From Streptomyces formicae (GTDB lineage Bacteria; Actinomycetota; Actinomycetes; Streptomycetales; Streptomycetaceae), in assembly GCF_002556545.1 (NCBI RefSeq), contig NZ_CP022685.1, positions 5,806,001-5,870,000 on the forward strand: a stretch of DNA of 64,000 bases. Direction: 5' to 3'. A model generated the notes under the pieces. That model saw nothing but the letters and a program-made list of their open reading frames with translations. It searched no databases and was not told the DNA's origin. A program made the translations under genes and the position numbers. Of the stretch, positions 11,865 through 47,770 are shown in pieces. Positions within the stretch are counted from its first letter, which is position 1. The number at the start of each line of letters is the position of its first letter.

Positions 11865-11878
11865 TCTACGCGCGTTAC
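11865..11878. promoter_or_regulatory. Nucleoside-regulon palindrome upstream of the first BMP lipoprotein gene
   Basis: TCTACGCGCGTTAC matches the left ten bases of the palindrome TCTACGCGCGTAGA found at other nucleoside genes in this window. Its right edge forms a TACTGT -10-like hexamer (11876-11881), so a bound repressor would cover the promoter. The block that follows (GAAATCAGCGCC) is also repeated before the second lipoprotein gene. Confidence 0.7.
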
Positions 11879-11935
11879 TGTGCGCCGAAATCAGCGCCGT
11901 CAACGGTGCGTTGGGGAACGTAAGGAGTACGTCCT

Positions 11936-13018
11936 ATGCGTCGTGTATCGAAACTTTCCCAAGTGGCCGTGGCGGTGGCGAGCCTCGCCCTCGCGGCCTC
12001 CGCGTGCGGCAAGACCAGCGACGAGGCGTCGAAGGACGACGGCAAGGACAAGGGGTCCGCCGGTTCGTCGGAGTACAAGGGCAAGGGCATCGGCCTCGCC
12101 TACGACATCGGCGGCAAGGGCGACCAGTCCTTCAACGACGCCGCCTACGCGGGCTACTCGAAGGCCCGCGAGGAGTTCAAGATCGGCGGCGTGGACATGG
12201 AGCCGGGCGACGGCGAGTCCAGCGCCGACAAGGTCCAGCGCCTCGAACAGCTCGCCAGGCAGGGCTACGACCCGGTCGTCGGCGTCGGCTTCGTCTACGC
12301 GCCCGCCGTGCAGGCCGCCGCGAAGAAGTACCCCGACACCACCTTCGGGATCATCGACGACAACACCGTGAAGGCGGACAACGTCGTCGACCTGGTCTTC
12401 CACGAGGAGCAGGGCTCCTATCTCGCGGGGGTCGCCGCGGCCAAGGTCTCCAAGGCCAAGCACGTCGGCTTCGTGGGCGGCGTGGACATCCCGCTCATCC
12501 ACAAGTTCGAGGCGGGCTTCGTCCAGGGCGTGAAGTCCGTGGACCCGAAGATCGAGATCGAGAAGCGCTATCTGACCGAGAAGCCCGAGGAGGGCGGCTT
12601 CTCCAGCCCCGACAAGGGGCAGAACGCCGCCAGCGGTCAGATCGAGGCCGGAGCGGACGTGATCTACCACGCCGCCGGGCTCTCCGGGCAGGGCGTCATC
12701 CAGGAGGTCGGCTCGCAGAAGAAGTGGGCGATCGGCGTCGACTCCGACCAGTACAAGCAGAAGGCCCTCGCCAAGTACAAGGACCACATCCTCGGCTCGG
12801 CCTTCAAGGACGTCGGCGGTGCGGTCTACGACCTGACGAAGTCGGTCGTCCAGGGCAAGCCGATGAAGGGCGAGCAGCGCTACGACCTCAAGTCGGGCCG
12901 CGTCGGGTTCTCCGACTCCAATCCGAAGTACACGGCGATGAAGGACGTCGTCGCCGCCGTGGAGAAGGCCAAGAAGGACATCATCAGCGGCAAGGTCAAG
13001 GTCAAGATCGCGCCATAG
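11936..13018 (+). CDS. BMP family nucleoside-binding lipoprotein (first copy)
   Basis: 360 residues. The signal peptide carries a lipobox (AASAC, Cys24), so this is a lipid-anchored substrate-binding protein of the Bmp/PnrA family that captures purine and pyrimidine nucleosides for an ABC importer. Motifs: GLAYDIGGKGDQSFNDAAYAG near residue 52, VVGVGFVYAPAV near 120, FVGGVDIPLIHKFEAGFVQG near 180, VIYHAAGLSGQGVI near 242 and WAIGVDSDQYKQ near 263. AAGGAG precedes the ATG. It is followed by a strong terminator and a close paralog, and by the transporter genes. Confidence 0.93.
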   Translation: MRRVSKLSQVAVAVASLALAASACGKTSDEASKDDGKDKGSAGSSEYKGKGIGLAYDIGGKGDQSFNDAAYAGYSKAREEFKIGGVDMEPGDGESSADKVQRLEQLARQGYDPVVGVGFVYAPAVQAAAKKYPDTTFGIIDDNTVKADNVVDLVFHEEQGSYLAGVAAAKVSKAKHVGFVGGVDIPLIHKFEAGFVQGVKSVDPKIEIEKRYLTEKPEEGGFSSPDKGQNAASGQIEAGADVIYHAAGLSGQGVIQEVGSQKKWAIGVDSDQYKQKALAKYKDHILGSAFKDVGGAVYDLTKSVVQGKPMKGEQRYDLKSGRVGFSDSNPKYTAMKDVVAAVEKAKKDIISGKVKVKIAP

Positions 13019-13063
13019 CTCCGCGGCGCGGAGACGTTTTACGTAGTACGTACTGCGGCGCCT

Positions 13064-13088
13064 GGGCGCCCCCACGAAGGGGGCGCCC
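13064..13088 (+). terminator. Terminator between the two BMP lipoprotein genes
   Basis: GGGCGCCCCC and GGGGGCGCCC form a perfect 10-bp stem around an ACGAA loop, 45 bp after the first lipoprotein stop. No U-tract follows, as is usual in Streptomyces. It separates the first copy from the second, which has its own promoter and operator. Confidence 0.8.
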
Positions 13089-13163
13089 ACTCGGCGTTCG
13101 GGCGCCGGACATCTGGTGGCCACAGCTCGATAACGGACCGGACAGAAGGGTTCTTATGTCAGG

Positions 13164-13177
13164 TCTACGCGCGTTAC
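13164..13177. promoter_or_regulatory. Nucleoside-regulon palindrome upstream of the second BMP lipoprotein gene
   Basis: TCTACGCGCGTTAC is identical over 14 bases to the site before the first lipoprotein gene. It runs into a TACGCT -10-like hexamer at 13175-13180. A GCGAAATCAGCGCC block follows, as at the first copy, so the promoter region was duplicated together with the gene. Confidence 0.72.
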
Positions 13178-13250
13178 GCTGCGGCGAAATCAGCGCCAGG
13201 TGAGGCGCTCGTACGTGCTTGTGCTTGCTTGTACTAAGGAGTTCGTCTCT

Positions 13251-14303
13251 ATGCGCCGGGTGTCTCGAATAGCTGTCGCGGGCGCCGCGACCGCCGCCCT
13301 CGCCGTCTCCGTCTCTGCCTGCGGTGGCACGTCAAGCGACGCCGCCGCCAGCAAGGACGACAAGAACAAGGGCGTCGCCATCGCCTACGACGTCGGCGGC
13401 GCCGGCGACCAGTCGTTCAACGACGCCGCGACCGAGGGCATGAAGAAGGCCGCCGCCGAGTTCAAGACCGGCGAGAAGGCCGTCGAGCCGGTCGACGGCG
13501 AGTCGGACGCCGACAAGGCGCAGCGCCTGACGCAGCTCGCGAAGCAGGGCTACAACCCGGTCATCGGCGTCGGCTACGCCTACGCCCCGGCGATCAAGGA
13601 AGTCTCCGCGAAGTTCCCGAAGGTCTCCTTCGGCATCGTCGACGACGAGACCGTCAAGGCCAAGAACGTCTCCGACCTGGTCTTCAGCGAGCAGGAGGCG
13701 TCCTACCTGGCAGGCGTCACCGCCGCCAAGGTCACCAAGTCCAAGACCGTCGGCTTCGTGGGCGGCGTGGACGTGCCGCTCATCCACAAGTTCGAGGCGG
13801 GCTTCGTCCAGGGCGTCAAGGACACCAACCCCAAGGTCAAGGTCGTCAAGCAGTACCTGACCGAGAAGGCCGAGGACGGCGGGTTCACCAGCCCCGACAA
13901 GGGCAAGACCGCCACCCAGGGCCACATCGAGAAGGGCGCCGACGTGGTCTACCACGCCGCGGGCCTCTCCGGTCAGGGCGTCATCGAGGCCGCCGCCGCC
14001 AAGAAGGTCTGGGCGATCGGCGTCGACTCCGACCAGTACAAGCAGGACGCGCTCGCCAAGTACAAGAAGTACATCCTGACCTCGGCGACCAAGGACGTCG
14101 CGGGCTCGGTCTACAACCTGGCGAAGGCCGTCGAGGACGGCAACGCCAAGGGCGGCGTCGTCCGCGCCGACCTCGCCTCCGGCGGTGTCGCGCTGACCGA
14201 CTCGAACCCCGAGTTCAAGAAGATGACGGATGTCCAGGCCGCGGTGAAGAAGGCCGAAGAGGGCATCAAGAGCGGCAAGATCAAGGTCAAGGCCAAGCCG
14301 TAG
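13251..14303 (+). CDS. BMP family nucleoside-binding lipoprotein (second copy)
   Basis: 350 residues, a close paralog of the gene at 11936. It shares the lipobox (VSAC), the AYDVGGAGDQSFNDAA motif, FVGGVDVPLIHKFEAGFVQG, VVYHAAGLSGQGVI and WAIGVDSDQYKQ. The ATG at 13251 has AAGGAG upstream. Differences cluster in the N-terminal linker and C-terminal lobe, so the two copies may differ in nucleoside preference or expression level. Both would serve the single ABC transporter encoded downstream. Duplication of gene plus promoter is inferred from the shared upstream block. Confidence 0.93.
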   Translation: MRRVSRIAVAGAATAALAVSVSACGGTSSDAAASKDDKNKGVAIAYDVGGAGDQSFNDAATEGMKKAAAEFKTGEKAVEPVDGESDADKAQRLTQLAKQGYNPVIGVGYAYAPAIKEVSAKFPKVSFGIVDDETVKAKNVSDLVFSEQEASYLAGVTAAKVTKSKTVGFVGGVDVPLIHKFEAGFVQGVKDTNPKVKVVKQYLTEKAEDGGFTSPDKGKTATQGHIEKGADVVYHAAGLSGQGVIEAAAAKKVWAIGVDSDQYKQDALAKYKKYILTSATKDVAGSVYNLAKAVEDGNAKGGVVRADLASGGVALTDSNPEFKKMTDVQAAVKKAEEGIKSGKIKVKAKP

Positions 14304-14304
14304 C

Positions 14305-14376
14305 GGCATACCGGCTGCCGTGACGAGTGGCCTGCCGGCTGCCGCGACACGTGGCATACCGGCTGCCGTGACAGCA
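14305..14376. repeat. Three tandem 24-bp repeats
   Basis: Units start at 14305, 14329 and 14353. Units 1 and 3 begin GGCATACCGGCTGCCGTGAC, and unit 2 differs at a few positions. The array begins right after the lipoprotein stop codon, in the 250-bp leader before the ABC ATPase gene. Each unit contains a CCGGCTGCCG-type self-complementary core, so the array could form structured RNA or act as a terminator. Confidence 0.8.
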
Positions 14377-14488
14377 GCGTGATTCTCGTGCGACGGGGTG
14401 TGGGGGACGATGGTTCACCCGCGCCCCGTTCGCGCGGAACACACCTCAACTTCCTTCCACACCAGGGAAGTTCCCTAGAAGCAGGGGC

Positions 14489-14502
14489 ACTGCGCGCGTA
14501 GG
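14489..14502. promoter_or_regulatory. Degenerate nucleoside-regulon palindrome upstream of the ABC transporter operon
   Basis: ACTGCGCGCGTAGG keeps the right half (CGCGCGTAG) of the shared palindrome, with three mismatches to TCTACGCGCGTAGA. It sits 55 bp upstream of the presumed ATPase start, after a small AGGGAAGTTCCCT palindrome at 14464-14476. Functionality is less certain than for the other six sites. Confidence 0.45.
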
Positions 14503-14557
14503 CGGCCCCTTTCCCTCAGGCCCTTCAAGGCCTTTCGGCCTCCGAGGAGAGTGCGCC

Positions 14558-16183
14558 ATCGACGCGTCCACCAGCCCTCCGCCCACCGGCAAGACCACAA
14601 CTCCCGCCAGTGGTACCGCTGTTGAGCTCAGCGGCATCACCAAGCGCTTCCCGGGCGTCGTGGCCAACCACGACATCCACCTGACCGTCCGCAAGGGCAC
14701 CGTGCACGCCCTCGTCGGCGAGAACGGCGCGGGCAAGTCGACCCTGATGAAGATCCTCTACGGCATGCAGAAGCCGGACGAGGGCACCATCACCGTCGAC
14801 GGCCGGCAGGTCTCCTTCGCCGGCCCCGCCGACGCGATCGTCCTCGGCATCGGCATGGTGCACCAACACTTCATGCTCGCCGACCAGTTGACGGTCCTGG
14901 AGAACATCGTCCTGGGCAGCGAGAAGCTGCACGGCATCGGCTCCGCGGCCCGCCGCAGGATCACCGAGATCTCCGAGCGGTACGGCCTCGGGGTGCGCCC
15001 CGACGTGTACGTCGAGGACCTCGGCGTCGCCGACCGCCAGCGCGTGGAGATCCTCAAGGTCCTCTACCGGGGCGCCACCACGCTGATCCTGGACGAGCCG
15101 ACGGCCGTGCTCGTGCCGCAGGAGGTCGACGCGCTCTTCGACAACCTGCGCGAGCTCAAGGCCGAGGGCCTCTCCGTCATCTTCATCTCGCACAAGCTCG
15201 GTGAAGTCCTCTCGGTGGCCGACGACATCACGGTCATCCGGCGCGGTACGACGGTGGGCACGGCGATCCCGTCCGAGACGACGCCCCGCCAGCTCGCCGA
15301 GCTGATGGTGGGCAGCGAGCTGCCGACGCCGGAGACGGCGGAGTCGACGGTCACGGACCGCGCGATGATCCAGGTCGAGAACCTCAGGCTGCTCGCCGAC
15401 GGCGAGTCGGGCCGCGCGCTGCTCGACGACATCTCCTTCACGATCCACGAGGGCGAGGTCCTCGGCATCGCGGGCGTCGAGGGCAACGGCCAGACCGAGC
15501 TCATCGACGCGCTCATCGGCCTCAAGCACGCCGACTCCGGCGTGATCCGCATGGCGGGCGAGGACATCACCGCCGTGCCCACCCGCAAGCGCCGCGAGGA
15601 CGGCATCGGCTACATCCCCGAGGACCGCCACCGCCACGGCCTCCTCCTGGAGTCCTCGCTGTGGGAGAACCGCATCCTCGGCCACGTCACCGAGAAGCCG
15701 AACGCGAAAGGCTTCTGGCTGGACCCCAAGGGCGCCCAGGCCGACACCCGCCGCATCGTCGAGGAGTACGACGTCCGTACGCCCGGCATCGACGTCACCG
15801 CCGCCTCCCTCTCCGGCGGCAACCAGCAGAAGCTGATCGTCGGCCGCGAGATGAGCCACAAGCCGCGCTTCCTGATCGCCGCCCACCCCACCCGCGGTGT
15901 GGACGTCGGCGCGCAGGCGCAGATCTGGGACCAGATCCGCGAGGCCCGCCGCGAGGGGCTCGCCGTCCTCCTCATCTCCGCCGACCTAGACGAGCTGATC
16001 GGTCTCTCCGACACCCTCCGCGTGATCTACCGCGGACGGCTCGTGGCGGACGCCGACCCGGCCGCCGTCACGCCGGAGGAGCTGGGTTCGGCGATGACGG
16101 GCGCGGCCTCCGGTCACCTCGAACACGTAGAAGAAGACCCCGAAGAGGGCTCTGCCGACACTTCGGAGGACGACGCCCGATGA
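14558..16183 (+). CDS. Nucleoside ABC transporter ATP-binding protein, ATC start
   Basis: 541 residues with two fused nucleotide-binding domains, as in the BmpD/YufO/RbsA-like importers. The first has a full Walker A (GENGAGKST) and DEPTAVL Walker B, but a weak signature (LGVADRQ). The second has a degenerate Walker A (GVEGNGQTE), a canonical SGGNQQK signature and AHPTRGVD in place of a catalytic glutamate. One productive ATP site is therefore likely. No ATG, GTG or TTG is in frame between 14471 and GTG at 14660, and that GTG would cut off the RFPGV strand. ATC at 14558 follows GAGGAG by 8 bp. Its stop overlaps the first permease as ATGA. Confidence 0.9.
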   Translation: MDASTSPPPTGKTTTPASGTAVELSGITKRFPGVVANHDIHLTVRKGTVHALVGENGAGKSTLMKILYGMQKPDEGTITVDGRQVSFAGPADAIVLGIGMVHQHFMLADQLTVLENIVLGSEKLHGIGSAARRRITEISERYGLGVRPDVYVEDLGVADRQRVEILKVLYRGATTLILDEPTAVLVPQEVDALFDNLRELKAEGLSVIFISHKLGEVLSVADDITVIRRGTTVGTAIPSETTPRQLAELMVGSELPTPETAESTVTDRAMIQVENLRLLADGESGRALLDDISFTIHEGEVLGIAGVEGNGQTELIDALIGLKHADSGVIRMAGEDITAVPTRKRREDGIGYIPEDRHRHGLLLESSLWENRILGHVTEKPNAKGFWLDPKGAQADTRRIVEEYDVRTPGIDVTAASLSGGNQQKLIVGREMSHKPRFLIAAHPTRGVDVGAQAQIWDQIREARREGLAVLLISADLDELIGLSDTLRVIYRGRLVADADPAAVTPEELGSAMTGAASGHLEHVEEDPEEGSADTSEDDAR

Positions 16184-17313
16184 AGAAGTTCGACAAGGAG
16201 CGCGTGCTCCTCGCGGTGGCCGGACCGGTCATCGCCCTGGTCGTGGCCGTGGTGCTGACCTCGGGCGTGCTGCTCGCCTCGGGCAAGAGCCCGATCGAGC
16301 CGTACAGCCTGATGTTCGAGCAGGCCACCTTCTCCGACGTCCAGGTGCTGATCATCAACCAGGCCGGGATGTACTACCTGGCCGCGCTCGCGGTGGCCAT
16401 CGGCTTCCGGATGAACCTGTTCAACATCGGTGTGGACGGCCAGTACCGGCTCGCCGCGATGGTGACCGCCGTCGTCGGCACGCACCTCGCGCTGCCGTCC
16501 TTCCTGCAGATCCCGATGCTCATGGCGGTCGCCATGCTCACCGGCGCCTTCTGGGCAGGCATCGCGGGTGTCCTCAAGACCACGCGCGGCGTCAGCGAGG
16601 TCGTCGCCACGATCATGCTCAACGCCATCGCGACGAGCGTCATCGCCTACTTCACCCTCACCGAGAACTTCGGCGTCCCGGTCGGCAACAACCAGACCAC
16701 GGGCGTGATGAAGGAGTCCGGCTGGTTCCCGGGCATCAGCATGGGCGAGTCCGGCGAGATCTACGGCTTCGTGTTCGTCGCGGTCCTCGCGGGCGTCCTG
16801 TACTGGCTGGTCCTCAACCGCACCCGCTTCGGCTTCGACCTGCGCGCCACCGGCGCCTCCGAGTCGGCCGCCGCGGCCAGCGGCGTCAACGCCAAGCGGA
16901 TGGTGCTGAGCGCGATGCTCATCTCCGGCGCGGTCTCGGGCCTCGCGGGCCTGCCGATCCTGCTCGGCGACACCCACACCTACAGCCTCTCCTTCCCCGC
17001 GGGCCTCGGGTTCACGGCCATCGGCATCGCACTGCTCGGCCGCAACAACCCGGTCGGCATCGCGCTCGCCGCGCTGCTCTGGGCCTTCCTCGACAAGGCT
17101 TCGCCCGCCCTCGACTACGCCACGCCCGAGCCGTACGACAAGGAAATCGCGGTGATCATGCAGGGCATCATCGTGATCGCGGTCGTCGTCTCCTACGAGG
17201 CCGTGGGCCGTTGGGGCCTGCGCCGCCAGCAGCAGCGCGTGGGTGAGGAACTGGCCGCCGCCGCACGGGCGAACGGCAACAACGACTCCGCGAAGGAGGT
17301 GGCTGCCCGATGA
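16180..17313 (+). CDS. Nucleoside ABC transporter permease 1
   Basis: 377 residues and about ten hydrophobic segments, of the BPD_transp_2 family used by nucleoside and branched-chain importers. An N-terminal helix spans residues 9-32. A large core contains FRMNLFNIGVDGQ, TTRGVSEVVATIMLNAIA (the loop that contacts the ATPase) and the repeated GAVSGLAGLP and FTAIGIALLGRNNPVG segments. ATGA overlap with the ATPase stop and a second ATGA overlap with permease 2 show tight translational coupling. It pairs with the next gene to form the membrane pore. Confidence 0.93.
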   Translation: MKKFDKERVLLAVAGPVIALVVAVVLTSGVLLASGKSPIEPYSLMFEQATFSDVQVLIINQAGMYYLAALAVAIGFRMNLFNIGVDGQYRLAAMVTAVVGTHLALPSFLQIPMLMAVAMLTGAFWAGIAGVLKTTRGVSEVVATIMLNAIATSVIAYFTLTENFGVPVGNNQTTGVMKESGWFPGISMGESGEIYGFVFVAVLAGVLYWLVLNRTRFGFDLRATGASESAAAASGVNAKRMVLSAMLISGAVSGLAGLPILLGDTHTYSLSFPAGLGFTAIGIALLGRNNPVGIALAALLWAFLDKASPALDYATPEPYDKEIAVIMQGIIVIAVVVSYEAVGRWGLRRQQQRVGEELAAAARANGNNDSAKEVAAR

Positions 17314-18572
17314 GTACGGCATCCGTGGCCAAGCCCCCGGCCAAGCAGCCCGCCGCGGGCCGCCGCCGCATCTCGCTCCCCGTCCTGATGCTGGTCATCG
17401 CGGGCGTCCTGGTGCTGACCTCCGTGGTCCGCATGATCACCGGCGCCGACGGCATCACGTCCATCGGACAGATGTCGACGGCCCTCCAGCTCGCCGTGCC
17501 GATCGGGCTCGCGGGCCTCGGCGGCCTGTGGGCCGAGCGCGCGGGCGTGGTCAACATCGGTCTCGAGGGCATGCTGATCCTCGGCACCTGGTTCGGCGCC
17601 TGGGCGGGCTTCCAGTGGGGCCCCTGGGTGGGCGTCCTGTTCGGGATCATCGGCGGCGCGCTCGGCGGTCTGCTGCACGCGATCGTGACGGTCACCTTCA
17701 ACGTCAACCACATCGTCTCCGGTGTGGCCCTCAACATCCTCGCCCTGGGCGCCACCCGCTACCTCGCCACCTTCGCCTTCGAGGGCGAGGAGGGCGGCAC
17801 CTCCAAGCAGTCGCCGCCGGTCGACTCGCTCGGCAGCTTCTCCGTGCCGGGCCTGTCCGACTGGCTCGTCGACCTCAACGGCAAGCACTGGTTCCTGGTC
17901 TCCGACCTCGCGGGCCTGCTCGGCGGTCTGATCACCAACCTGTCGCCGCTCACCGTGGTCGCCGTGGCGATGGTCCCGCTGAGCTGGTGGGTCCTGTGGC
18001 GCACCTCGTTCGGCCTGCGCCTGCGCTCCTGCGGCGAGAACCCGATCGCGGCCGAGTCGCTCGGCGTGAACGTCTACAAGTACAAGTACCTGGCCGTGGT
18101 CATCTCCGGCGGCCTCGCGGGCCTCGGCGGCGCCTTCCTCTCCCTGGTCGCCTCCAACATCTACCTGGAGGGCCAGACCGGCGGCCGAGGCTACATCGGC
18201 CTCGCCGCGATGATCTTCGGCAACTGGATGCCGGGCGGACTCGCGCTCGGCGCGGGCCTGTTCGGTTACACCGACAGCCTGAAGCTCCGGGGTGGCGGCA
18301 CGAACGTGCACGCGCTGCTGCTGCTCATCGCGATCCTGCTGGTCATCGGCGCGGTCTACCTCGCCTGGCGCAAGCGCTACGTGCCCGCGGTGATCACCGC
18401 GGCGATCTCCGCGCTGATGTTCCTGTGGTACGGCTTGACCGACGAGGTGCCCAACCAGGTCGTCACCGCGACTCCGTACGTCGTGACCCTGCTGGTCCTC
18501 TCGCTCTCCGCCCAGCGCCTGCGGATGCCGAAGGCGGACGGAATGCCCTACCGAAGGGGACAAGGCAAGTGA
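17310..18572 (+). CDS. Nucleoside ABC transporter permease 2
   Basis: 420 residues, paralogous to the preceding permease. The recognisable segments are AVPIGLAGLGGLWAERAGVV, NIGLEGMLILGTWFGAW, TFNVNHIVSGVALNILALGA, GVNVYKYKYLAVVISGGLAG and YIGLAAMIFGNWMPGG. About ten membrane spans are seen. It begins with an ATGA overlap and ends with a GTGA overlap onto the cytidine deaminase gene. Co-translation of a pyrimidine-nucleoside deaminase with the importer indicates that cytidine and deoxycytidine are among the cargoes. Confidence 0.93.
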   Translation: MSTASVAKPPAKQPAAGRRRISLPVLMLVIAGVLVLTSVVRMITGADGITSIGQMSTALQLAVPIGLAGLGGLWAERAGVVNIGLEGMLILGTWFGAWAGFQWGPWVGVLFGIIGGALGGLLHAIVTVTFNVNHIVSGVALNILALGATRYLATFAFEGEEGGTSKQSPPVDSLGSFSVPGLSDWLVDLNGKHWFLVSDLAGLLGGLITNLSPLTVVAVAMVPLSWWVLWRTSFGLRLRSCGENPIAAESLGVNVYKYKYLAVVISGGLAGLGGAFLSLVASNIYLEGQTGGRGYIGLAAMIFGNWMPGGLALGAGLFGYTDSLKLRGGGTNVHALLLLIAILLVIGAVYLAWRKRYVPAVITAAISALMFLWYGLTDEVPNQVVTATPYVVTLLVLSLSAQRLRMPKADGMPYRRGQGK

Positions 18573-19033: not shown

Positions 19034-19047
19034 TCTATGCGCGTAGA
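19034..19047. promoter_or_regulatory. Nucleoside-regulon palindrome at the deoA promoter
   Basis: TCTATGCGCGTAGA, extended to CTCTATGCGCGTAGAG at 19033-19048, is the palindrome with one mismatch. The TAGAGT at 19044-19049 can serve as a -10 hexamer, so the operator overlaps the promoter 60 bp before the start codon. Confidence 0.75.
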
Positions 19048-19107
19048 GTCGCGACGGTACTGATGTATGTGTGTGCGTACGCCGTTGTACTGCTGGAAGG
19101 ACATGCC

Positions 19108-20385
19108 ATGGACGTCATCTCTGTCATCCGCACCAAGCGCGACCGGGGCGAGCTCAGCGACGAGCAGATCGACTGGGTCATCGACGCGTACACGCGCGGC
19201 GCGGTCGCCGACGAACAGATGTCGTCCCTGGCCATGGCGATCCTCCTGAACGGCATGAACCGCAAGGAGATCGCCCGCTGGACCGCCGCGATGATCGCGT
19301 CCGGTGAGCGCATGGACTTCTCCTCCCTGTCCCGCCCCACCGCCGACAAGCACTCCACGGGCGGCGTCGGCGACAAGATCACGCTGCCGCTCGCCCCGCT
19401 GGTCGCCGCGTGCGGGGCCGCGGTGCCGCAGCTGTCGGGCAGGGGCCTCGGCCACACCGGCGGCACGCTCGACAAGCTGGAGGCCATTCCCGGCTGGCGG
19501 GCGCTGCTCTCCAACGAGGAGATGCTGAACGTCCTGGAGGGCGTCGGCTCGGTGATCTGCGCGGCGGGCGACGGCCTGGCTCCCGCCGACAAGAAGCTGT
19601 ACGCGCTCCGCGACGTGACGGGCACGGTGGAGGCGATCCCGCTGATCGCCTCGTCCATCATGTCCAAGAAGATCGCCGAGGGCACGGGCTCCCTGGTCCT
19701 CGACGTGAAGGTCGGCACCGGCGCCTTCATGAAGAACCTCGACGACGCGCGCGAACTGGCCTCCACGATGGTCGAGTTGGGCACGGACAGCGGCGTGCGC
19801 ACGGTGGCGCTCCTCACCGACATGTCGACGCCACTCGGCCTGACGGCGGGCAACGCGCTCGAAGTCCGCGAATCGGTGGAGGTCCTCGCGGGCGGCGGCC
19901 CCGCGGACGTCGTCGAACTCACCCTCGCCCTGGCCCGCGAGATGCTGGACGCGGCGGGCCTGCCGGACGCCGACCCGGCGAAGGCGCTGGCCGACGGCTC
20001 CGCGATGGACGTCTGGCGCCGCATGATCGCGGCGCAGGGGGGCGACCCGGACGCGGAGTTGCCGGTGGCACGGGAGCGGCACGTGGTGACGGCCCCCTCG
20101 TCCGGCGTCCTCACCCGCCTCGACGCGTACGACATCGGCGTGGCCGCCTGGCGTCTCGGCGCGGGGCGGGCCCGCAAGGAGGACGTGGTGCAGGCGGGCG
20201 CGGGCGTCGAACTCCACGTGAGGCCGGGGGCGGCCGTGGTGCAGGGCCAGCCTCTCCTCACCCTCCACACGGACACACCGTCCCGCTTCGCGTACGCGCT
20301 CCAGTCGCTGGAGGGGGCGTACGACATCGCTCCCGTCGGCACGGGTTTCTCGCCGGGGGCGATTGTGCTGGGGCGGGTTGGCTAG
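19108..20385 (+). CDS. deoA: Thymidine / pyrimidine-nucleoside phosphorylase
   Basis: 425 residues. The family signature SGRGLGHTGGTLDKLEAIPG is near residue 112, and the phosphate-site segment KHSTGGVGDKITLPLAPLVAACG near residue 80. The N-terminal helical bundle (RDRGELSDEQIDWVIDAYTRG) and C-terminal domain are complete. The enzyme cleaves thymidine, deoxyuridine or uridine with phosphate to the base and (deoxy)ribose-1-phosphate. ATG at 19108 has GGAAGG upstream. Together with cdd it completes pyrimidine nucleoside breakdown, and its sugar product is passed to the phosphomutase and DeoC enzymes encoded elsewhere in this window. Confidence 0.96.
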   Translation: MDVISVIRTKRDRGELSDEQIDWVIDAYTRGAVADEQMSSLAMAILLNGMNRKEIARWTAAMIASGERMDFSSLSRPTADKHSTGGVGDKITLPLAPLVAACGAAVPQLSGRGLGHTGGTLDKLEAIPGWRALLSNEEMLNVLEGVGSVICAAGDGLAPADKKLYALRDVTGTVEAIPLIASSIMSKKIAEGTGSLVLDVKVGTGAFMKNLDDARELASTMVELGTDSGVRTVALLTDMSTPLGLTAGNALEVRESVEVLAGGGPADVVELTLALAREMLDAAGLPDADPAKALADGSAMDVWRRMIAAQGGDPDAELPVARERHVVTAPSSGVLTRLDAYDIGVAAWRLGAGRARKEDVVQAGAGVELHVRPGAAVVQGQPLLTLHTDTPSRFAYALQSLEGAYDIAPVGTGFSPGAIVLGRVG

Positions 20386-27432: not shown

Positions 27433-27455
27433 TCTACGCGCGTAGGCGCTAGCAT
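27433..27455 (+). promoter_or_regulatory. Nucleoside-regulon palindrome and promoter of add
   Basis: TCTACGCGCGTAGG (27433-27446) exactly precedes a TAGCAT -10-like hexamer (27450-27455). Six bases later is the add ATG, so the transcript is probably leaderless. The operator fills the spacer upstream of the -10 element, as expected for a repressor. Confidence 0.75.
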
Positions 27456-27461: not shown

Positions 27462-28631
27462 ATGACGAGCCAGACACACACGACCGGTCACACGGACCGT
27501 GAAACGCCCAGCGCCGAACAGATCCGCCGTGCCCCGAAGGTGCTCCTGCACGACCACCTCGACGGCGGCCTGCGCCCCGGCACGATCGTCGACCTCGCCC
27601 GCGAGAACGGGTACGAGGGACTGCCCGAGACCGACCCCGACAAGCTCGGGATCTGGTTCCGCGAGGCGGCCGACTCCGGCTCCCTGGAGCGGTACCTGGA
27701 GACCTTCGCGCACACCTGCGCCGTGATGCAGACGAAGGACGCCCTCCGGCGCGTGGCCGCCGAGTGCGCCGAGGACCTCGCCGAGGACGGCGTGGTCTAC
27801 GCCGAGATCCGGTACGCCCCCGAGCAGCACCTGGAGAGCGGCCTCACCCTCGAAGAGGTCGTCGAGGCGGTCAACGAGGGCTTCCGCGAGGGCGAGCGCC
27901 GCGCGAAGGCGAACGGCCACCGCATCCGAGTGGGCGCGCTGCTCACCGCCATGCGGCACGCGGCCCGCGCCCTGGAGATCGCCGAACTCGCCAACCGCTA
28001 CCGCGATCTGGGCGTCGTCGGCTTCGACATCGCGGGCGCCGAGGCCGGGTTCCCGCCCACCCGCCACCTCGACGCGTTCGAGTTCCTCAAGCGCGAGAAC
28101 AACCACTTCACCATCCACGCGGGCGAGGCCTTCGGCCTGCCGTCGATCTGGCAGGCCCTCCAGTGGTGCGGCGCCGACCGGCTCGGCCACGGCGTGCGCA
28201 TCATCGACGACATCGAGGTCGCGGAGGACGGCACGGTCCAGCTCGGCCGCCTCGCCTCGTACGTGCGCGACAAGCGCATTCCGCTGGAGCTCTGCCCGAG
28301 TTCCAACCTGCAGACGGGCGCCGCGACTTCGTACGCCGAGCACCCGATCGGGCTGCTGCGCAAGCTGCACTTCCGCGCGACGGTGAACACCGACAACCGG
28401 CTGATGTCCGGCACCAGCATGAGCCGCGAATTCGAGCACCTGGTCGGCACGTTCGGCTACACGCTCGACGACATGCAGTGGTTCACTGTCAATGCGATGA
28501 AATCAGCATTCATTCCTTTCGATGAACGACTGGCCATGATCAACGACGTGGTCAAGCCCGGTTATGCCGAGCTGAAGTCCGAATGGCTGTTCCGCCAGAC
28601 CGTCTCGACCAGCACTTCTGTCGGGAACTAG
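27462..28631 (+). CDS. add: Adenosine deaminase
   Basis: 389 residues. Zinc and substrate motifs appear in order: [12 protein letters not shown] near residue 27 (two zinc histidines), [10 protein letters not shown] near 187, [14 protein letters not shown] near 213 (zinc histidine and catalytic glutamate), DRLGHGVRI near 240 and [13 protein letters not shown] near 275. [12 protein letters not shown] segment near 308 supplies the catalytic aspartate. The enzyme converts adenosine and deoxyadenosine to inosine and deoxyinosine, which purine nucleoside phosphorylase then cleaves. The ATG has no ribosome site, and the promoter spacing suggests a leaderless mRNA. Confidence 0.96.
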
Positions 28632-41766: not shown

Positions 41767-42711
41767 TCAGTCCACCGTCACGTAGTCGGGGCCGGAGTAG
41801 CGTCCTGTGGCCAGCTTCTGGCGCTGCATCAGCAGGTCGTTGAGGAGCGAGGAGGCGCCGAAGCGGAACCAGTGGTTGTCCAGCCAGTCGGGGCCCGCCG
41901 TCTCGTTCACCAGGACGAGGAACTTCACCGCGTCCTTGGTCGAGCGGATGCCGCCCGCGGGCTTCACCCCGATCTGCACGCCCGTCTGTGCGCGGAAGTC
42001 GCGGACGGCCTCCAGCATCAGGAGCGTGTTGGGCGGGGTGGCGTTGACGCCGACCTTGCCGGTCGAGGTCTTGATGAAGTCGGCGCCCGCGATCATGCCG
42101 ATCCAGCTGGCGCGCTTGATGTTGTCGTACGTCGAGAGTTCGCCGGTCTCGAAGATGACCTTCAGGCGGGCGGTGCCGCTGGCCTCCTTCACGGCGCGGA
42201 TCTGCTCGAACACCGTCATGTAGTCGCCGGAGAGGAAGGCGCCCCGGTCGATGACCATGTCGATCTCGTCGGCGCCCGCGGCGACGGCCTCGCGCACGTC
42301 GCCGAGCTTCACGTCGATGGCGGCGCGGCCCGCGGGGAAGGCGGTGGCCACGGAAGCGACCTTCACACCGCTGCCCGCGACGGCCTCCTTGGCGGTGGCC
42401 ACCATGTCCGGATAGACGCAGACGGCGGCGGTGCGGGGCGTGTCACGGTCGGTGGGGTCCGGGTGGACGGCCTTGGCGCCGAGCGCCCGGACCTTGCCCG
42501 GGGTGTCGGCGCCCTCGAGGGTCGTCAGGTCGATCATCGAGATGGCCAGGTCGATGGCGTACGCCTTCGCCGTGGTCTTGATCGAACGGGTACCGAGCGA
42601 GGCGGCACGCGCCTCCAGGCCGACCGCGTCGACGCCGGGCAGCCCGTGGAGGAAGCGGCGGAGCGTGCTGTCGGACGCGGTCACGTCAGCGAATGCAGTG
42701 GGCATGGTCAC
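41767..42711 (-). CDS. deoC: Deoxyribose-phosphate aldolase
   Basis: 314 residues, of the longer actinobacterial/eukaryotic DeoC type. The Schiff-base lysine is in MIAGADFIKTSTGKVG, the second active-site lysine in VQIGVKPAGGIRSTKDAVKF, and the catalytic aspartate in GADEIDMVIDRGAFLSG. It splits 2-deoxyribose-5-phosphate into glyceraldehyde-3-phosphate and acetaldehyde. GTG at 42711 or ATG at 42705 starts it. A TATGCT hexamer six bases before the GTG, with no ribosome site, suggests a leaderless transcript. The operator palindrome sits in the promoter spacer. Confidence 0.95.
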   Translation of the reverse strand: MTMPTAFADVTASDSTLRRFLHGLPGVDAVGLEARAASLGTRSIKTTAKAYAIDLAISMIDLTTLEGADTPGKVRALGAKAVHPDPTDRDTPRTAAVCVYPDMVATAKEAVAGSGVKVASVATAFPAGRAAIDVKLGDVREAVAAGADEIDMVIDRGAFLSGDYMTVFEQIRAVKEASGTARLKVIFETGELSTYDNIKRASWIGMIAGADFIKTSTGKVGVNATPPNTLLMLEAVRDFRAQTGVQIGVKPAGGIRSTKDAVKFLVLVNETAGPDWLDNHWFRFGASSLLNDLLMQRQKLATGRYSGPDYVTVD

Positions 42712-42723
42712 GAGGGGAGCATA

Positions 42724-42737
42724 TCTACGCGCGTAGC
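42724..42737. promoter_or_regulatory. Nucleoside-regulon palindrome at the deoC promoter
   Basis: TCTACGCGCGTAGC, containing the perfect 12-bp palindrome CTACGCGCGTAG. On the minus strand it fills the 17-bp spacer between a TGTACA -35-like and a TATGCT -10-like hexamer. A bound protein would block RNA polymerase. Confidence 0.8.
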
Positions 42738-42809
42738 TGCTGTACAGGGGGCCGGGGGGTCCGCTCCGGGGTGGGTCCGCACGGTTGGCTCGTGCCGTGC
42801 GGGGCCGGT

Positions 42810-42960: not shown

Positions 42961-43033
42961 GGCGTAGGCGCAGGTGTACCTCCTACGGAAGGCGCCCTGA
43001 GGGGGCGCGAGGGGCTTCAGGCAGAATCAGGGT

Positions 43034-43678
43034 ATGAGCGACCCTCAGAAGCCCGTGGCGGAGCCCTCCGAGCCCGCCTACCAGGACCGCACCTACCGGT
43101 CCCCGGCCGGTATCGCCGGTGGTGTCCTGCTGCTCGCCCTGGGCACCTGGCTCGGCGTCGACGCCGTCATCCGCGGCGAGGGCAGGACCCCGTGGCTCGC
43201 GATCGCCGGGCTGCTGCTCGCCGTGCCGCTGGTCGTCGCGTACACGGTGCGGCCCTGCGTCTACGCCAACGACGACCGGCTGCGCGTCCGCAACCCCTTC
43301 CGGAGCATCACGCTGCCGTGGGCGTCCGTCGCCACGCTCCGCTCCGGATACTCCAACGAGGTCCTCACCAACGACGGCACCAAGTTCCAGCTCTGGGCGA
43401 TCCCCGTCTCGCTGCGCGGCCGCAAGAAGGCGGCGCGCAGGCAGTCGCAGGCCACCGCGGCCGGTGACCCGACGAGCGGCAAGCCCTTCCTCGACCCCAC
43501 GACACGGCCCACGCGCTCCTCGGGCGACCAGTCCATGGACAGCCTCCGCGAACTCGCCGAGCGCCAGGCCGACGCCGAGTCGGCCCAGGGCGAGCCGGTG
43601 GTGCGCTGGGCGTACGAGATCCTCGCTCCTGCCGTGGCGGGTGCCGTGCTGCTCGTCGTCCTGCTCGCGGTCACCTGA
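43034..43678 (+). CDS. PH-like domain membrane protein
   Basis: 214 residues. Two adjacent hydrophobic segments (residues about 25-45 and 53-72) precede a compact bacterial PH-like domain: RPCVYANDDRLRVRNPFRSITLPWASVATLRSGYSNEVLTNDGTKFQLWAIPVSLRGR. A final hydrophobic helix (ILAPAVAGAVLLVVLLAV) ends the protein. A basic, glutamine- and arginine-rich loop with a DPTTRPTRSSGDQSMDSLRELAERQ helix separates them. Bacterial PH-like membrane proteins are widespread and mostly uncharacterised. The start is ATG. Confidence 0.75.
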   Translation: MSDPQKPVAEPSEPAYQDRTYRSPAGIAGGVLLLALGTWLGVDAVIRGEGRTPWLAIAGLLLAVPLVVAYTVRPCVYANDDRLRVRNPFRSITLPWASVATLRSGYSNEVLTNDGTKFQLWAIPVSLRGRKKAARRQSQATAAGDPTSGKPFLDPTTRPTRSSGDQSMDSLRELAERQADAESAQGEPVVRWAYEILAPAVAGAVLLVVLLAVT

Positions 43679-43727
43679 GGCGACAGGCGACAGGCGACAG
43701 GCGAGAGTCGACAGGCGTAGGCGGGGG

Positions 43728-44939
43728 CTACGGAGGGCCCAGCCATGCCAGGAGCATGTGGCCGCCGAACGCGGCCGAGGTGAGGGCGAGCGCCGTCAGC
43801 GCCGTCACCAGCACATGCGTCCTCGCGCGCGCCAGCGCCACCGCGATCGGCAGCAGCAGCGGGAAGCCGGGCAGCAGGAAGCGCGCCCTCGGGAAGTAGA
43901 CGCCGCTGCTGCCGAGGACGATCAGCAGGAGCAGGCCGGTGAAGACCAGCAGCGGCAGCGGCTGGCGGTCGCCCACCGAGAGCACGAAGAGGACCACCGA
44001 GCCGAGCAGCACCGCCGTCACCATCGCGAGGAACAGCTGCGGCCGCTCGATCACGAACAGCGCGTGCATCCGGCGCAGCGTCTCCACGCCCCCGTCCCAC
44101 TTGTTGTGCCACAGCTTCTGTACGGCGAAGTAGCCGTCCCAGCGGCCCAGGCGCAGGCCCACCCACCCGACGTACGCGAGCCAGCCGAGCGGGGCGATGA
44201 GGGCGCCGAGCAGCGGGCGCGGGGCGAAGGGGGCGCGGCGCAGGGAGAGCAGCGCCGCCACGGACACCGCGGCCGCCAGCGCGACCCCGGTGGGGCGCGT
44301 CAGGCCCGCGAGCGCCGCGAGGGAGCCCGCCCACAGCCAGCGGCCCGTGAGCACCGCGTACAGCGACCACGCCGTGAGGGCGGTGAAGAGGGACTCGGTG
44401 TAGCCCATCCACTGCACGAGCGCGACCGGCAGGCTGCCCCACAGGACCGCGAGGACGACGCCCGCCCTGCGGCCGTACAGCCGGTCGCCCACCGCGAAGA
44501 TCCCCCACGCCGCGGCGAACGAGCAGACCAGCGCGATCCCCAGGCCCACGGCCCCGCGCGGCAGGCCGGGCACGAGGGCGTCGCCCGCCCTGATCAGGGA
44601 CGGGAGCAGCGGGAAGAACGCGAGGTTGTTCGCGTCGAACTGGGTGCCGAGCGTGTGCGCGTAGCCGTGCTCGGCGATCTTCAGGTACCAGTCGCAGTCC
44701 CACGACTCCATCAGCAGGTGCCGGATCCCGCGGTGCTCGCGGTGCGCCCACGCCCCGAACACCAGGAGGCCGAGCGTGCGCACGGCCGCGTACGCGAGGA
44801 GCGCGGGGGAGGCGTGGCGCAGGGCGCGCAGAGCGCGGGCGCGGAAGGCGGGGGAGGGGTGTGCGGTGGTGCGGGGGCGCCTGGACGCGGGGACGCGGGA
44901 CGGGGCGGCGGTCGAGGGCTCGGAGATTCCGTACGGCAC
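43728..44939 (-). CDS. PIG-V-like mannosyltransferase, integral membrane
   Basis: 403 residues from GTG at 44939, which has GGGAG 8 bp upstream. About ten membrane segments are visible. The family motifs are readable: ESWDCDWYLKIAEHGY near residue 70, NNLAFFPLLPSLI near 95, QWMGYTESLFTALTAWSLYAV near 165, and AGLTRPTGVALAAA near 200. These match GPI-mannosyltransferase PIG-V and GT-C enzymes that use polyprenyl-phosphate sugars. In Actinobacteria such enzymes mannosylate lipids or glycoproteins. Which acceptor is used cannot be told from the neighbours. Confidence 0.85.
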   Translation of the reverse strand: MPYGISEPSTAAPSRVPASRRPRTTAHPSPAFRARALRALRHASPALLAYAAVRTLGLLVFGAWAHREHRGIRHLLMESWDCDWYLKIAEHGYAHTLGTQFDANNLAFFPLLPSLIRAGDALVPGLPRGAVGLGIALVCSFAAAWGIFAVGDRLYGRRAGVVLAVLWGSLPVALVQWMGYTESLFTALTAWSLYAVLTGRWLWAGSLAALAGLTRPTGVALAAAVSVAALLSLRRAPFAPRPLLGALIAPLGWLAYVGWVGLRLGRWDGYFAVQKLWHNKWDGGVETLRRMHALFVIERPQLFLAMVTAVLLGSVVLFVLSVGDRQPLPLLVFTGLLLLIVLGSSGVYFPRARFLLPGFPLLLPIAVALARARTHVLVTALTALALTSAAFGGHMLLAWLGPP

Positions 44940-45067
44940 TGCGGCAGCTCCCGGAACGTGATCGTGCGCTACCGGTCGACCCTTCCTGGGGGACCGGCAG
45001 CGCACCGGATCACTGCGTCAGCTGCCGTAGTGGAACCACTCTCGCGGGTGGCCCGGGGGCGGTGTCG

Positions 45068-46711
45068 TCAGATGCCCGCCGCCGCCGACAGGTCCCGCTT
45101 GATCGCGGCGAGGAGTTCCGTGGCCCTGGCGCGCGCCGCGGGGAGCTCCTGCTTCGCCGACACCGGGACCACCACCTCCAGGTAGCACTTGAGCTTCGGC
45201 TCCGTGCCGCTCGGGCGGACGATCACGCGGGCGCCCTCCAGCGTGTAGCGCAGGCCGTCCGTGGGCGGCAGCTCGTCCGTGCCCCGCGTCAGGTCCTCCG
45301 CCCGCGTCACCCGCAGGCCCGCGAGTTCCGTCGGCGGCTGCTCGCGCAGGCGGCGCATCGCGTCCGCGATCAGGGAGAGGTCCTCCACGCGGACCGACAG
45401 CTGGTCGGTGGCGTGCAGGCCGTGCTCCACGGCCAGGTCGTCGAGGAGGTCGAGGACGGTGCGGTCCTGCTCCTTGAGCTCGGACGCGAGCTCCGTGAGC
45501 AGCAGCGCCGCCGTGATGCCGTCCTTGTCGCGTACGCCCTCGGGGTCCACGCAGTAGCCGAGCGCCTCTTCGTAGCCGTAGCGCAGGCCGTCCACGCGGG
45601 CGATCCACTTGAAGCCGGTCAGGGTCTCCTCGTACCCGAGGCCCGCCTTCTCCGCGATCCTGCCGAGCAGGGACGAGGACACGATCGACTCCGCGAACGT
45701 GCCGCGGGCGCCACGCGCGACCAGGTGCGCGGCGAGCAGCGCCCCCACCTCGTCGCCGCGGAGCATCCGCCACTCCGCGCCGTCCTTGACGGCCGCGGCG
45801 CAGCGGTCCGCGTCGGGGTCGTTGGCGATGACCAGGTCGGGGGCCGGGGTGGTGCGGGCCGCCGTCGCGAAGGACAGGTCCATCGCGCCCGGCTCCTCCG
45901 GGTTGGGGAACGCGACCGTCGGGAAGTCCGGGTCGGGCTCGGCCTGTTCGGCGACGAGCGTCGGCTCGGGGAATCCCGCCCTCGCGAACGCCGCGAGGAG
46001 GGTGTCCTTGCCGACGCCGTGCATCGCCGTGTAGACGACGCGGGCGGTGCGGGGGGAGTCCGGGTCCAGGACGGCGTCCGTGCGCGCCAGATAGGCCTCC
46101 AGGACGTCCTCGGAGAGGGTTTCCCAGCCGGTCTCGGGGCGGGGCACGTCGTGCAGGCTCGCGATCGCGTCGATCTGCGCGGCGATCTCCGCGTCCGCGG
46201 GCGGGACGATCTGCGAGCCGTCGCCGAGGTAGACCTTGTAGCCGTTGTCGCGCGGGGGGTTGTGGCTGGCGGTCACCTCCACGCCCGCGACCGCGCCGAG
46301 GTGCCGTATGGCGAAGGCGAGCACGGGGGTGGGCAGGGGGCGGGGCAGGACGGCCGCCTTCAGGCCCGCGCCGGTCATCACGGCGGCGGTGTCGCGGGCG
46401 AAGTCGGCGGACTTGTGGCGGGCGTCGTAGCCGATGACGACGAGGCCGTCGGTCTCACCCTTGGCCTTGAGGTACGCGGCGAGGCCCGCGGCGGCGCGGA
46501 TGACCACGGTGCGGTTCATGCGCATGGGTCCCGCGCCGAGTTCACCGCGGAGCCCCGCGGTGCCGAACTGGAGGGTGCCGCCGAAGCGGGCCGCCAGGTC
46601 GTCGGTGTCCTCGGCGTCGATGAGCTTGGCGAGCTCGTCGCGGGTCTCGGGGTCCGGGTCCTCGGAGAGCCATGCCTGGGCCCGTGCGATGAGTTCGGAG
46701 TGGTCCTGCAC
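45068..46711 (-). CDS. Phosphosugar mutase (phosphopentomutase/phosphomannomutase, PGM2 type)
   Basis: 547 residues. The active serine is in EVTASHNPPRDNGYKVY near residue 140, the metal loop is ANDPDADRCAAAV near 285, the sugar loop YEEALGYCVDP near 380, and the phosphate loop RPSGTEPKLKCYLEV near 505. The PGM2-like subgroup includes phosphopentomutases that interconvert (deoxy)ribose-1-phosphate and -5-phosphate. Next to purine nucleoside phosphorylase and with deoC nearby, that is the likely job here; phosphomannomutase is the usual annotation. It is probably co-transcribed with the phosphorylase gene 196 bp upstream. Confidence 0.88.
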   Translation of the reverse strand: MQDHSELIARAQAWLSEDPDPETRDELAKLIDAEDTDDLAARFGGTLQFGTAGLRGELGAGPMRMNRTVVIRAAAGLAAYLKAKGETDGLVVIGYDARHKSADFARDTAAVMTGAGLKAAVLPRPLPTPVLAFAIRHLGAVAGVEVTASHNPPRDNGYKVYLGDGSQIVPPADAEIAAQIDAIASLHDVPRPETGWETLSEDVLEAYLARTDAVLDPDSPRTARVVYTAMHGVGKDTLLAAFARAGFPEPTLVAEQAEPDPDFPTVAFPNPEEPGAMDLSFATAARTTPAPDLVIANDPDADRCAAAVKDGAEWRMLRGDEVGALLAAHLVARGARGTFAESIVSSSLLGRIAEKAGLGYEETLTGFKWIARVDGLRYGYEEALGYCVDPEGVRDKDGITAALLLTELASELKEQDRTVLDLLDDLAVEHGLHATDQLSVRVEDLSLIADAMRRLREQPPTELAGLRVTRAEDLTRGTDELPPTDGLRYTLEGARVIVRPSGTEPKLKCYLEVVVPVSAKQELPAARARATELLAAIKRDLSAAAGI

Positions 46712-46762
46712 GTGTGTTCAGCCTCTCGTGTGCGGGTCTCGTGCCGTCTCGTTGGGGTGCGG

Positions 46763-46857
46763 GGCCCGCGGCCGCGGGCCGGGGGGCCGAGTCGCTACTG
46801 CCGTGGGCAGATGTTCCGCAGGGCGGAACGGGTGGGCACAGCCCCCGTCGCCGAGGG
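46763..46857. repeat. Palindrome plus dispersed 55-bp element between mutase and phosphorylase genes
   Basis: GGCCCGCGGCCGCGGGCC (46763-46780) is an exact 18-bp palindrome. At 46803-46857 lies a 55-bp element, beginning GTGGGCAGATGTTCCGCAGG, whose near-identical copy (one mismatch seen) is at 59915-59969. It contains a TTCCGC/GCGGAA hairpin. The sequence has no coding potential and its role is unknown. Confidence 0.8.
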
Positions 46858-46907
46858 ACGGGCACGGGACGCACCCGCCCCTCGCCTAGGGAGCCGTTCC
46901 CGCGAGG

Positions 46908-47732
46908 TCAGATGCGGCCGAGGACCTTGCCGAGGAGCTCGCCCATGCGGGTGGCGCTGTCGCGGCCCGCCTGGAGCACCTCCTCGTGGTTCAGCGGCTC
47001 GCCCGTCATGCCCGCGGCGAGGTTGGTGACCAGGGAGATGCCGAGCACCTCCGCACCGGCCTCGCGGGCGGCGATCGCCTCGAGCACGGTGGACATGCCG
47101 ACCAGGTCCGCACCGATCGTGCGGGCCATGCGGATCTCGGCGGGGGTCTCGTAGTGCGGGCCGGGGAACTGCGCGTAGACGCCCTCTTCGAGGGTCGGGT
47201 CGATCTCCTTGCAGAGCGCCCGCAGCCGCGGCGAGTACAGGTCCGTGAGGTCGACGAAGTTCGCGCCGACGATCGGGGACGTCGCCGTGAGGTTGAGGTG
47301 GTCGCTGATCAGCACCGGCTGGCCGGGGCGCATGCCCTCGCGCAGGCCGCCGCAGCCGTTGGTCAGCACGATGGTCTTGCAGCCCGCGGCCACGGCGGTG
47401 CGGACACCGTGCGAGACGGCGGCCACGCCACGGCCCTCGTAGTAGTGGGTGCGGCCCAGGAAGACCAGCGCGCGCTTGTCGCCGACCTTGAAGGAGCGGA
47501 TGCGGCCGCCGTGGCCCTCGACGGCCGGCGGCGGGAAGCCGGGCAGCTCGGTGACCGGGAACTCGGCATCGGGCGCACCGAGCGCCTCGACGGCCGGCGC
47601 CCAGCCGGAGCCCATCACGAGGGCTACGTCGTGGGTCTCGGCGCCCGTCAGCTCACGCAGGCGCGCGGCGGCGGCGTCGGCGGCGGCGTAGGGGTCGCCC
47701 TGGATGTCGTCCGGAATAACTGAAGCGTTCAC
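46908..47732 (-). CDS. punA: Purine nucleoside phosphorylase (class II, trimeric)
   Basis: 274 residues. [17 protein letters not shown] near residue 38 is the phosphate loop, [11 protein letters not shown] holds an active-site histidine, [10 protein letters not shown] the arginine/tyrosine loop, and [26 protein letters not shown] the purine-side strand. [15 protein letters not shown] completes the class II signature. It cleaves (deoxy)inosine and (deoxy)guanosine with phosphate. GTG at 47732 is preceded by a TACTCT hexamer 7 bases away and no ribosome site, so it is probably leaderless. The operator palindrome is 25 bp upstream. Confidence 0.95.
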
Positions 47733-47756
47733 GCCGATGAGAGTAGCCGGTCACGC

Positions 47757-47770
47757 CCTACGCGCGTAGA
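47757..47770. promoter_or_regulatory. Nucleoside-regulon palindrome at the purine nucleoside phosphorylase promoter
   Basis: CCTACGCGCGTAGA contains the perfect CTACGCGCGTAG. On the minus strand it overlaps the expected -35 region and the upstream part of the spacer of the TACTCT promoter. It is the clearest site together with those before add and deoC. Confidence 0.78.

Follow-up and report, generated by a model that had tools for sequence, protein, structure and literature searches.

In this work, we have analysed a stretch of 64,000 nucleotides of the Streptomyces formicae genome (contig NZ_CP022685.1, positions 5,806,001 to 5,870,000; hereafter the window), in which a 14-bp palindrome, TCTACGC-GCGTAGA, recurs upstream of genes for nucleoside uptake and breakdown. 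Comparisons within this genome and across the Streptomycetaceae point to the palindrome as probably the operator of a LacI-family repressor (G000:C1:4490518-4491537), an estimate that covers operator and repressor and excludes the effector logic. Most of the regulon and its likely regulator lie outside the window, and the regulon comprises nucleic-acid scavenging together with purine supply, which is wider than nucleoside catabolism.

The original prediction placed seven copies of the palindrome in the window, and a mismatch scan of the window found all of them. Relative to the reference consensus TCTACGCGCGTAGA, the copies at 19034, 27433, 42724 and 47757 carry one mismatch, and those at 11865, 13164 and 14489 carry three. 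With up to three mismatches the window holds eight matches, the additional one at 49581, against a mean of 3.47 in shuffled sequences, and eight or more were obtained in 3 of 100 shuffles; taken alone, this count is only weakly above chance. A weight matrix trained on 124 sites from other genomes and then run over the window gave its seven highest scores (22.8, 22.8, 22.6, 21.5, 13.7, 13.7 and 8.8) to precisely the seven predicted sites, the maxima in 30 simulated windows being 17.9 at rank 1, 11.2 at rank 4 and 7.8 at rank 7. Since the training sites had been picked by likeness to the earlier consensus, the matrix depends in part on that consensus, and its ranking is a supporting test, not an independent discovery. 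The eighth score, 8.0 at 43708-43721 (TCGACAGGCGTAGG), falls between convergent gene ends and is probably due to chance.

The sites had also been described as lying where repressor operators lie, and inspection by eye agrees: both bmp sites and the deoA site overlap a -10-like TANNNT hexamer, the deoC site abuts one, and the hexamer stands 3 bp downstream of the add site and 11 nt downstream of the pnp site, so that six of the seven overlap, abut or stand at most 11 nt upstream of such a box. At 14489 no clear TANNNT hexamer was seen by eye; this weak site is supported because in 10/10 other genomes the same position upstream of the ABC operon holds a match with no more than two mismatches. 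As to the genes behind the sites, the names deoA, add, deoC and pnp stand, with NCBIfam matches above cut-off (Table 1), whereas the ABC genes and bmp2 matched only 'B6 ABC transporter' models, below cut-off, and the reading frame scanned for bmp1 (11911-13203) had no NCBIfam match.

Throughout the 9.6-Mb genome the consensus is matched with at most two mismatches at 22 places (eight for the reversed control), 12 of which, four in the window and eight outside it, are at genes for nucleic acids, nucleotides, nucleosides or bases; adjacent genes were annotated for the 18 places outside the window. The eight outer sites precede the respective genes in Table 1 or stand at their start. The scope of the original prediction, nucleoside catabolism, thus holds for the nucleoside genes and is too narrow, as purSQL, two nucleobase permeases, a 5'-nucleotidase, an acid phosphatase and nucleases carry the operator too; the nucleases, nucleotidase and phosphatase have, by eye, signal-peptide-like N-termini. 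At a further one of the 22 places, an operator that recurs in other genomes lies upstream of an operon for a carbon-nitrogen hydrolase (amidase), whose best NCBIfam match, N-carbamoylputrescine amidase, is below cut-off, and a class III aminotransferase. Nine places (L007, L010, L012, L013, L014, L015, L016, L017 and L019) were left uncounted, because they fall within coding sequence or have unrelated genes as neighbours. The operator of the HNH-type nuclease is embedded in signal-peptide codons (VYARR in S. formicae) and recurs in relatives of the gene from several Streptomyces (L053, L055, L056, L058, L059, L061, L063 and L068).

Enrichment upstream of nucleoside genes, run as a check across genomes, was upheld. 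Eleven Streptomyces genomes hold 93 sites with one mismatch (four for the reversed control). Genes were assigned for the 75 listed sites of nine of these genomes (one site of G004 is not among them), and 67 of these are at regulon genes, namely add, an add paralogue, deoA, deoC, pnp, the ABC operon, purS, NCS1, NCS2, the HNH or Exo_endo nuclease, the acid phosphatase and the amidase operon; leaving out the amidase operon (six sites) and the HNH nuclease (seven) gives 54 of 75. The other eight stand before oligopeptide-type ABC permeases (three), at a MAM-domain protein (two) and at L133, L139 and L417; the permease and MAM groups recur and may be real members.

Conservation at orthologous promoters, the second check, was equally borne out. 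The add site is present in 17 of 18 Streptomyces loci, and the purS site, with at most two mismatches, in 19/19; both are absent from the 11 loci outside the family. With at most three mismatches, the purS site was found in 22 of 28 loci of a Streptomycetaceae sample, two of the misses being mis-anchored, and it was found in 15 of 20 further family loci, two of whose genomes overlap that sample. At the add promoter each operator column holds 2.0 bits of information; the 5' flank has 0.32, and the 3' flank, where the -10-like box and the start codon lie, has 1.42. The bmp and ABC-operon sites occur in 10/10 genomes, in stretches chosen by distance from deoA, and corresponding sites, picked by their own sequence, lie upstream of deoC and of pnp in 9/9 genomes each. 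Eight genomes sampled from other genera of the Streptomycetaceae all have sites with one mismatch (35 in total, none for the control), and the four genomes scanned outside the family have none; overall the operator is present in 20/20 Streptomycetaceae genomes scanned. The perfect palindrome, used as a query, occurs in 0/61 genomes of the genus, which means that every real site departs from it by one mismatch or more. Placement within the genome and across genomes thus bears out a scattered nucleoside regulon.

Which protein would read this operator? The consensus of the 124 sites, themselves selected by likeness to the palindrome, has the LacI-type shape, an even palindrome with a central CG. 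S. formicae has at least 21 LacI genes (150 of 179 first-look candidates were scored), and only one of the 21, the candidate, has a match with at most three mismatches upstream. This auto-site, TCCATCCGCGTAGA, lies 22 bp before the GTG start and continues into a -10-like TAGACT box. The protein has the PF00356 helix-turn-helix (56.5 bits, cut-off 27) and an effector domain of LacI/PurR type, its residues 4-301 aligning with CcpA (E 6e-52) and 5-336 with PurR (E 4e-43). An orthologue exists in 61/61 Streptomycetaceae genomes from 17 genera, and operator and orthologue occur together in 8/8 genomes of other genera of the family; outside it, the best LacI protein matches in the 12 genomes compared are at most about 40% identical, and in the four genomes without one-mismatch sites no protein among the best matches exceeds 41% identity. 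CGCGTAGA lies upstream of the LacI gene in 30/30 loci (the 30 best of 61, S. formicae included) and in 80/80 named loci of the closest relatives, two sets that may overlap. Among 86 distinct LacI promoter sequences, the left half of the site is kept at T1 (1.9 bits) and A4 (1.3 bits), and the recognition helix TSTAVVSYV is identical in 50/50 copies inspected. The pattern TNNAYNCGCGTAGANT has four matches in the genome, at the LacI gene, purS, deoA and NCS1, and its reversed control has none. According to Camas et al. 2010 (PMC2978694), Arg at position AA-20 goes with G at NT-6; the palindrome has C at NT-6 and the candidate Tyr at AA-20, and among the 21 LacI proteins 13 have Arg and eight do not, several of these having or possibly having Tyr, a pairing that only narrows the field of LacI candidates. 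The LacI-type binder of the original prediction is thus supported by a LacI gene outside the window with an operator half-site at its own promoter. One Streptomyces genome has the orthologue broken into two reading frames (L247, G010:C2:3170764-3171850), through a frameshift or an assembly error. When plasmid records were searched with the protein by tblastn, a single copy at 72% turned up, in Streptomyces chartreusis, the others being at 41% or less.

Several observations weigh against this picture. The left half of the auto-site is degenerate (three mismatches overall), and at the window rate about 0.6 matches with at most three mismatches would be expected by chance upstream of 21 genes; the auto-site alone is therefore weak evidence, and the case rests on conservation. 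At the LacI promoters the last two left-half columns favour T (1.1 bits) and C (1.5 bits) where the palindrome has C and G, and the flank columns, mostly at 0.1-0.8 bits, include three that reach 1.4-1.6. The pattern TNNAYNCGCGTAGANT was designed after the LacI and deoA sites had been seen. In 20 LacI promoters from the other 31 loci, 11 have CGCGTAGA, one has CGCATAGA and eight have no auto-site although the recognition helix is unchanged. Sampled genomes of groups g6, g9 and g14 have the LacI protein, its recognition helix unaltered, but are without auto-site and purS site; four of the sampled g7 copies are also without auto-site, and genomes of g13 are without the purS site. Sites are still kept at pnp in g6, g9 and g13, at add in g6 and g9, and at NCS2 in g14. 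From these gaps it follows that the regulon is not uniform and that autoregulation is not universal. At deoA, no more than 4 to 5 of the 19 Streptomyces loci have the site: besides the window's own there are three one-mismatch copies, a symmetric variant (TCCATGCGCGTGGA) and a single weak match. At the HNH nuclease, the coding constraint on signal-peptide codons could mimic conservation of the site.

We propose that a dimer of the LacI protein binds the palindrome and would thereby block RNA polymerase at the -10 region; repression is suggested because the sites lie on or beside -10 boxes, a position typical of repressors. Its own gene, whose promoter carries the right half of the operator, may be repressed weakly. 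The signal may be purine sufficiency, sensed through a base or nucleoside as corepressor, so that all targets would be released together when purines are short. Granted the operator and the repressor, we lean slightly towards this corepressor logic, because purSQL synthesis and purine acquisition share an operator: substrate induction would explain digestion, uptake and breakdown but not purSQL, whereas purine sufficiency would explain all four. E. coli PurR uses hypoxanthine or guanine as corepressor. The PurR residues which we take to contact the purine base (Tyr73, Phe74, Arg190, Thr192, Phe221 and Asp275) align with Phe, Phe, Thr, Thr, Tyr and Asp of the candidate, with a gap nearby.

Two points speak against purine sufficiency: the Thr of the candidate at PurR Arg190, and the fact that add, deoA and deoC could just as ordinarily be induced by their substrates. 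The same operator and repressor might respond to nucleosides or deoxyribose phosphates as inducers, with the logic of CytR or DeoR, an alternative to the effector part only. The window targets are mostly catabolic or uptake genes, and CytR, also of the LacI family, has cytidine and adenosine as inducers (PMC4052901). Induction of purine synthesis by nucleosides would, in contrast, be metabolically implausible, and purSQL carries the operator in every Streptomyces locus sampled; we regard induction as possible but the less probable logic. In its widest form, our proposal is that one LacI repressor runs the whole nucleic-acid-eating programme of the Streptomycetaceae (secreted nucleases, nucleotidase, phosphatase, importers, phosphorolysis and purSQL), sensing purine sufficiency and not the presence of substrate, and so merging jobs that in enterobacteria belong to PurR, CytR and DeoR; we put this forward as plausible, a little short of probable.

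The palindrome might instead be read by a factor of another family (TetR, GntR, MarR or other), the LacI gene being merely one of its targets. In favour of such a binder, the screen covered LacI genes only, the binding of the LacI protein to the palindrome is deduced from sequence, and some divergent genomes keep operators without the auto-site. Yet an even 14-bp palindrome with a central CG is the LacI shape, the right half-site is present in all of the 30 and the 80 LacI loci, operator and orthologue co-occur at family level, and Tyr at AA-20 suits C at NT-6, which together make a non-LacI binder unlikely.

Reading the motif as a promoter element, with a sigma factor using it as an extended -10 box, would account for the right half often making a -10-like box (CGTAGAGT at deoA, CGTAGACT at the LacI gene) and for that half alone being well kept at the LacI gene. 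This reading is very improbable and was rejected, for the symmetry is retained where the -10-like box is elsewhere: the complete palindrome at add, pnp and purS is followed, at varying distances, by a TANNNT hexamer distinct from it; in several other genera the purS site keeps its left half intact and varies in its right half (TCTACGCGCGTCGC and similar); and in one genome the deoA site TCCATGCGCGTGGA has paired changes in both halves, which argues for a dimer that reads the palindrome. Least credible is the DeoR/AgaR-type protein at 50013, which the original prediction had named as a candidate for its location and which was rejected: only its nearness to pnp speaks for it, which means little because regulon genes are scattered genome-wide, it has no operator upstream (best match in 331 bases, six mismatches), and its NCBIfam DeoR score of 73.6 bits is below the cut-off of 244, the best match, AgaR, being below cut-off too.

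Table 1. Features of the window and operator-associated genes elsewhere in the S. formicae genome
Feature	Position	Strand	Remarks
Operator TCTACGCGCGTTAC upstream of bmp1	11865..11878	+	overlaps -10-like TACTGT (11876-11881)
bmp1, BMP-type substrate-binding lipoprotein 1	11936..13018	+	lipobox-like LAASAC near N-terminus, by eye
Operator TCTACGCGCGTTAC upstream of bmp2	13164..13177	+	overlaps TACGCT (13175-13180)
bmp2, BMP-type substrate-binding lipoprotein 2	13251..14303	+	open reading frame listed from GTG 13200; ABC_BMP_B6 98.9 bits, below cut-off 400
Weak operator ACTGCGCGCGTAGG upstream of ABC operon	14489..14502	+	
ABC transporter operon	14660..18572	+	ATPase 14660-16183, permease 17310-18572 (the two genes scanned; NCBIfam matches below cut-off)
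Operator TCTATGCGCGTAGA of deoA	19034..19047	+	overlaps -10-like TAGAGT; kept in only part of the genus
deoA, thymidine phosphorylase	19063..20385	+	PRK05820 635 bits, cut-off 269; longest open reading frame, in-frame start 19108 also possible
Operator TCTACGCGCGTAGG of add	27433..27446	+	3 bp upstream of TAGCAT
add, adenosine deaminase	27462..28631	+	NCBIfam 643 bits, cut-off 412
deoC, deoxyribose-phosphate aldolase	41767..42711	-	TIGR00126 180.9 bits, cut-off 117.3
Operator GCTACGCGCGTAGA of deoC (gene strand)	42724..42737	-	abuts TATGCT
pnp, purine nucleoside phosphorylase	46908..47732	-	TIGR01698 344.5 bits, cut-off 302.6; Pfam PNP_UDP_1
Operator TCTACGCGCGTAGG of pnp (gene strand)	47757..47770	-	11 nt upstream of TACTCT
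DeoR/AgaR-type regulator	50013..50984	+	earlier candidate, judged not the binder
LacI-family protein, candidate repressor, 340 aa	G000:C1:4490518-4491537		encoded outside the window
NCS1 permease	L005		operator, at most two mismatches
Carbon-nitrogen hydrolase (amidase) and class III aminotransferase operon	L006		operator upstream
HAD-IIIB acid phosphatase	L008		operator, at most two mismatches
Exo_endo_phos protein	L009		operator, at most two mismatches
5'-nucleotidase	L011		operator, at most two mismatches
Endonuclease I	L018		operator, at most two mismatches
GmrSD_C (HNH-type) nuclease	L020:2357-3004		operator, at most two mismatches, in coding sequence
NCS2 xanthine/uracil-type permease	L021		operator, at most two mismatches
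purSQL	L022		operator, at most two mismatches

Three further groups of sites were seen in other genomes. An oligopeptide-type ABC permease, a possible regulon member, has a one-mismatch operator about 265-276 bp upstream in three genomes (L135/G009, L142/G016 and L146/G007), with an SseB-domain gene on the opposite side. In two genomes (L138/G016 and L148/G003) a one-mismatch site stands at the start of a secreted-looking protein of 486-516 aa with an InhA-like MAM match below the Pfam cut-off. A second add paralogue, about 62-63% identical, has an operator at its start in L143 (G007) and L099 (G001).

Repressors of the LacI family that govern scattered regulons have been described before. Among five groups of LacI regulons for nucleosides are AdeR, HpxR and UriR, and a Streptomycetaceae regulon, SCO5692, is also described (PMC4052901). 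In our literature search neither the palindrome as an operator nor this regulator was recognised in print, an earlier prediction being possible, and no regulator was found to connect the digestion of extracellular nucleic acids with purine supply in Streptomyces. A 'purines' iModulon is mentioned for S. coelicolor (PMC11538686), and purine and GTP pools feed into Streptomyces development and antibiotic timing (PMC6627660). Compared with S. lividans, S. coelicolor contains much larger amounts of putative nucleases and of the adenosine deaminase SCO4901, which the authors read as cell lysis and phosphate recycling (PMC7244524); it could also fit shared control. If true, a single operator-regulator pair would link nucleic-acid digestion to purine supply in a way testable by one knock-out, and would offer a defined switch for strain engineering.

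How does the candidate compare with known regulators? E. coli PurR, also a LacI-family protein, is 32% identical to the candidate, but the candidate scores 185.9 against the NCBIfam PurR cut-off of 501, its regulon is mostly scavenging and catabolism, and the PurR operator differs from the palindrome. Scores against the other models are 175.1 for CytR (cut-off 436), 193 and 182.4 for RbsR (cut-offs 382 and 531) and 116.1 for UriR (cut-off 550), so that by NCBIfam cut-offs the candidate is classed as none of PurR, CytR, RbsR or UriR. We know of no purSQL in the CytR regulon. PurR controls purine synthesis (PMC4052901); CytR of gamma-proteobacteria, also of the LacI family, controls nucleoside transport and utilization (PMC3454398); and UriR of Corynebacterium is likewise an actinobacterial LacI nucleoside regulator, for uridine, but is described as a local one (PMC4052901). 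Among regulators of other families, NupR of Bacillus thuringiensis also governs nucleoside transport but belongs to the GntR/HutC family (PMC9430930), and XdhR of S. coelicolor is similarly linked to purines but is a TetR-family protein with xdh and act genes as its targets and a response to (p)ppGpp (PMC6627660). The guvermectin regulators ScnR1/SCO1642, GvmR and GvmR2 are, like the candidate, Streptomyces LacI proteins, associated with a purine nucleoside product and a 14-bp palindrome with a central CG, but their operator, RTCATWCGYATGAY / RTSATACGHATRAY, differs from the palindrome described here when compared by eye (PMC12292694).

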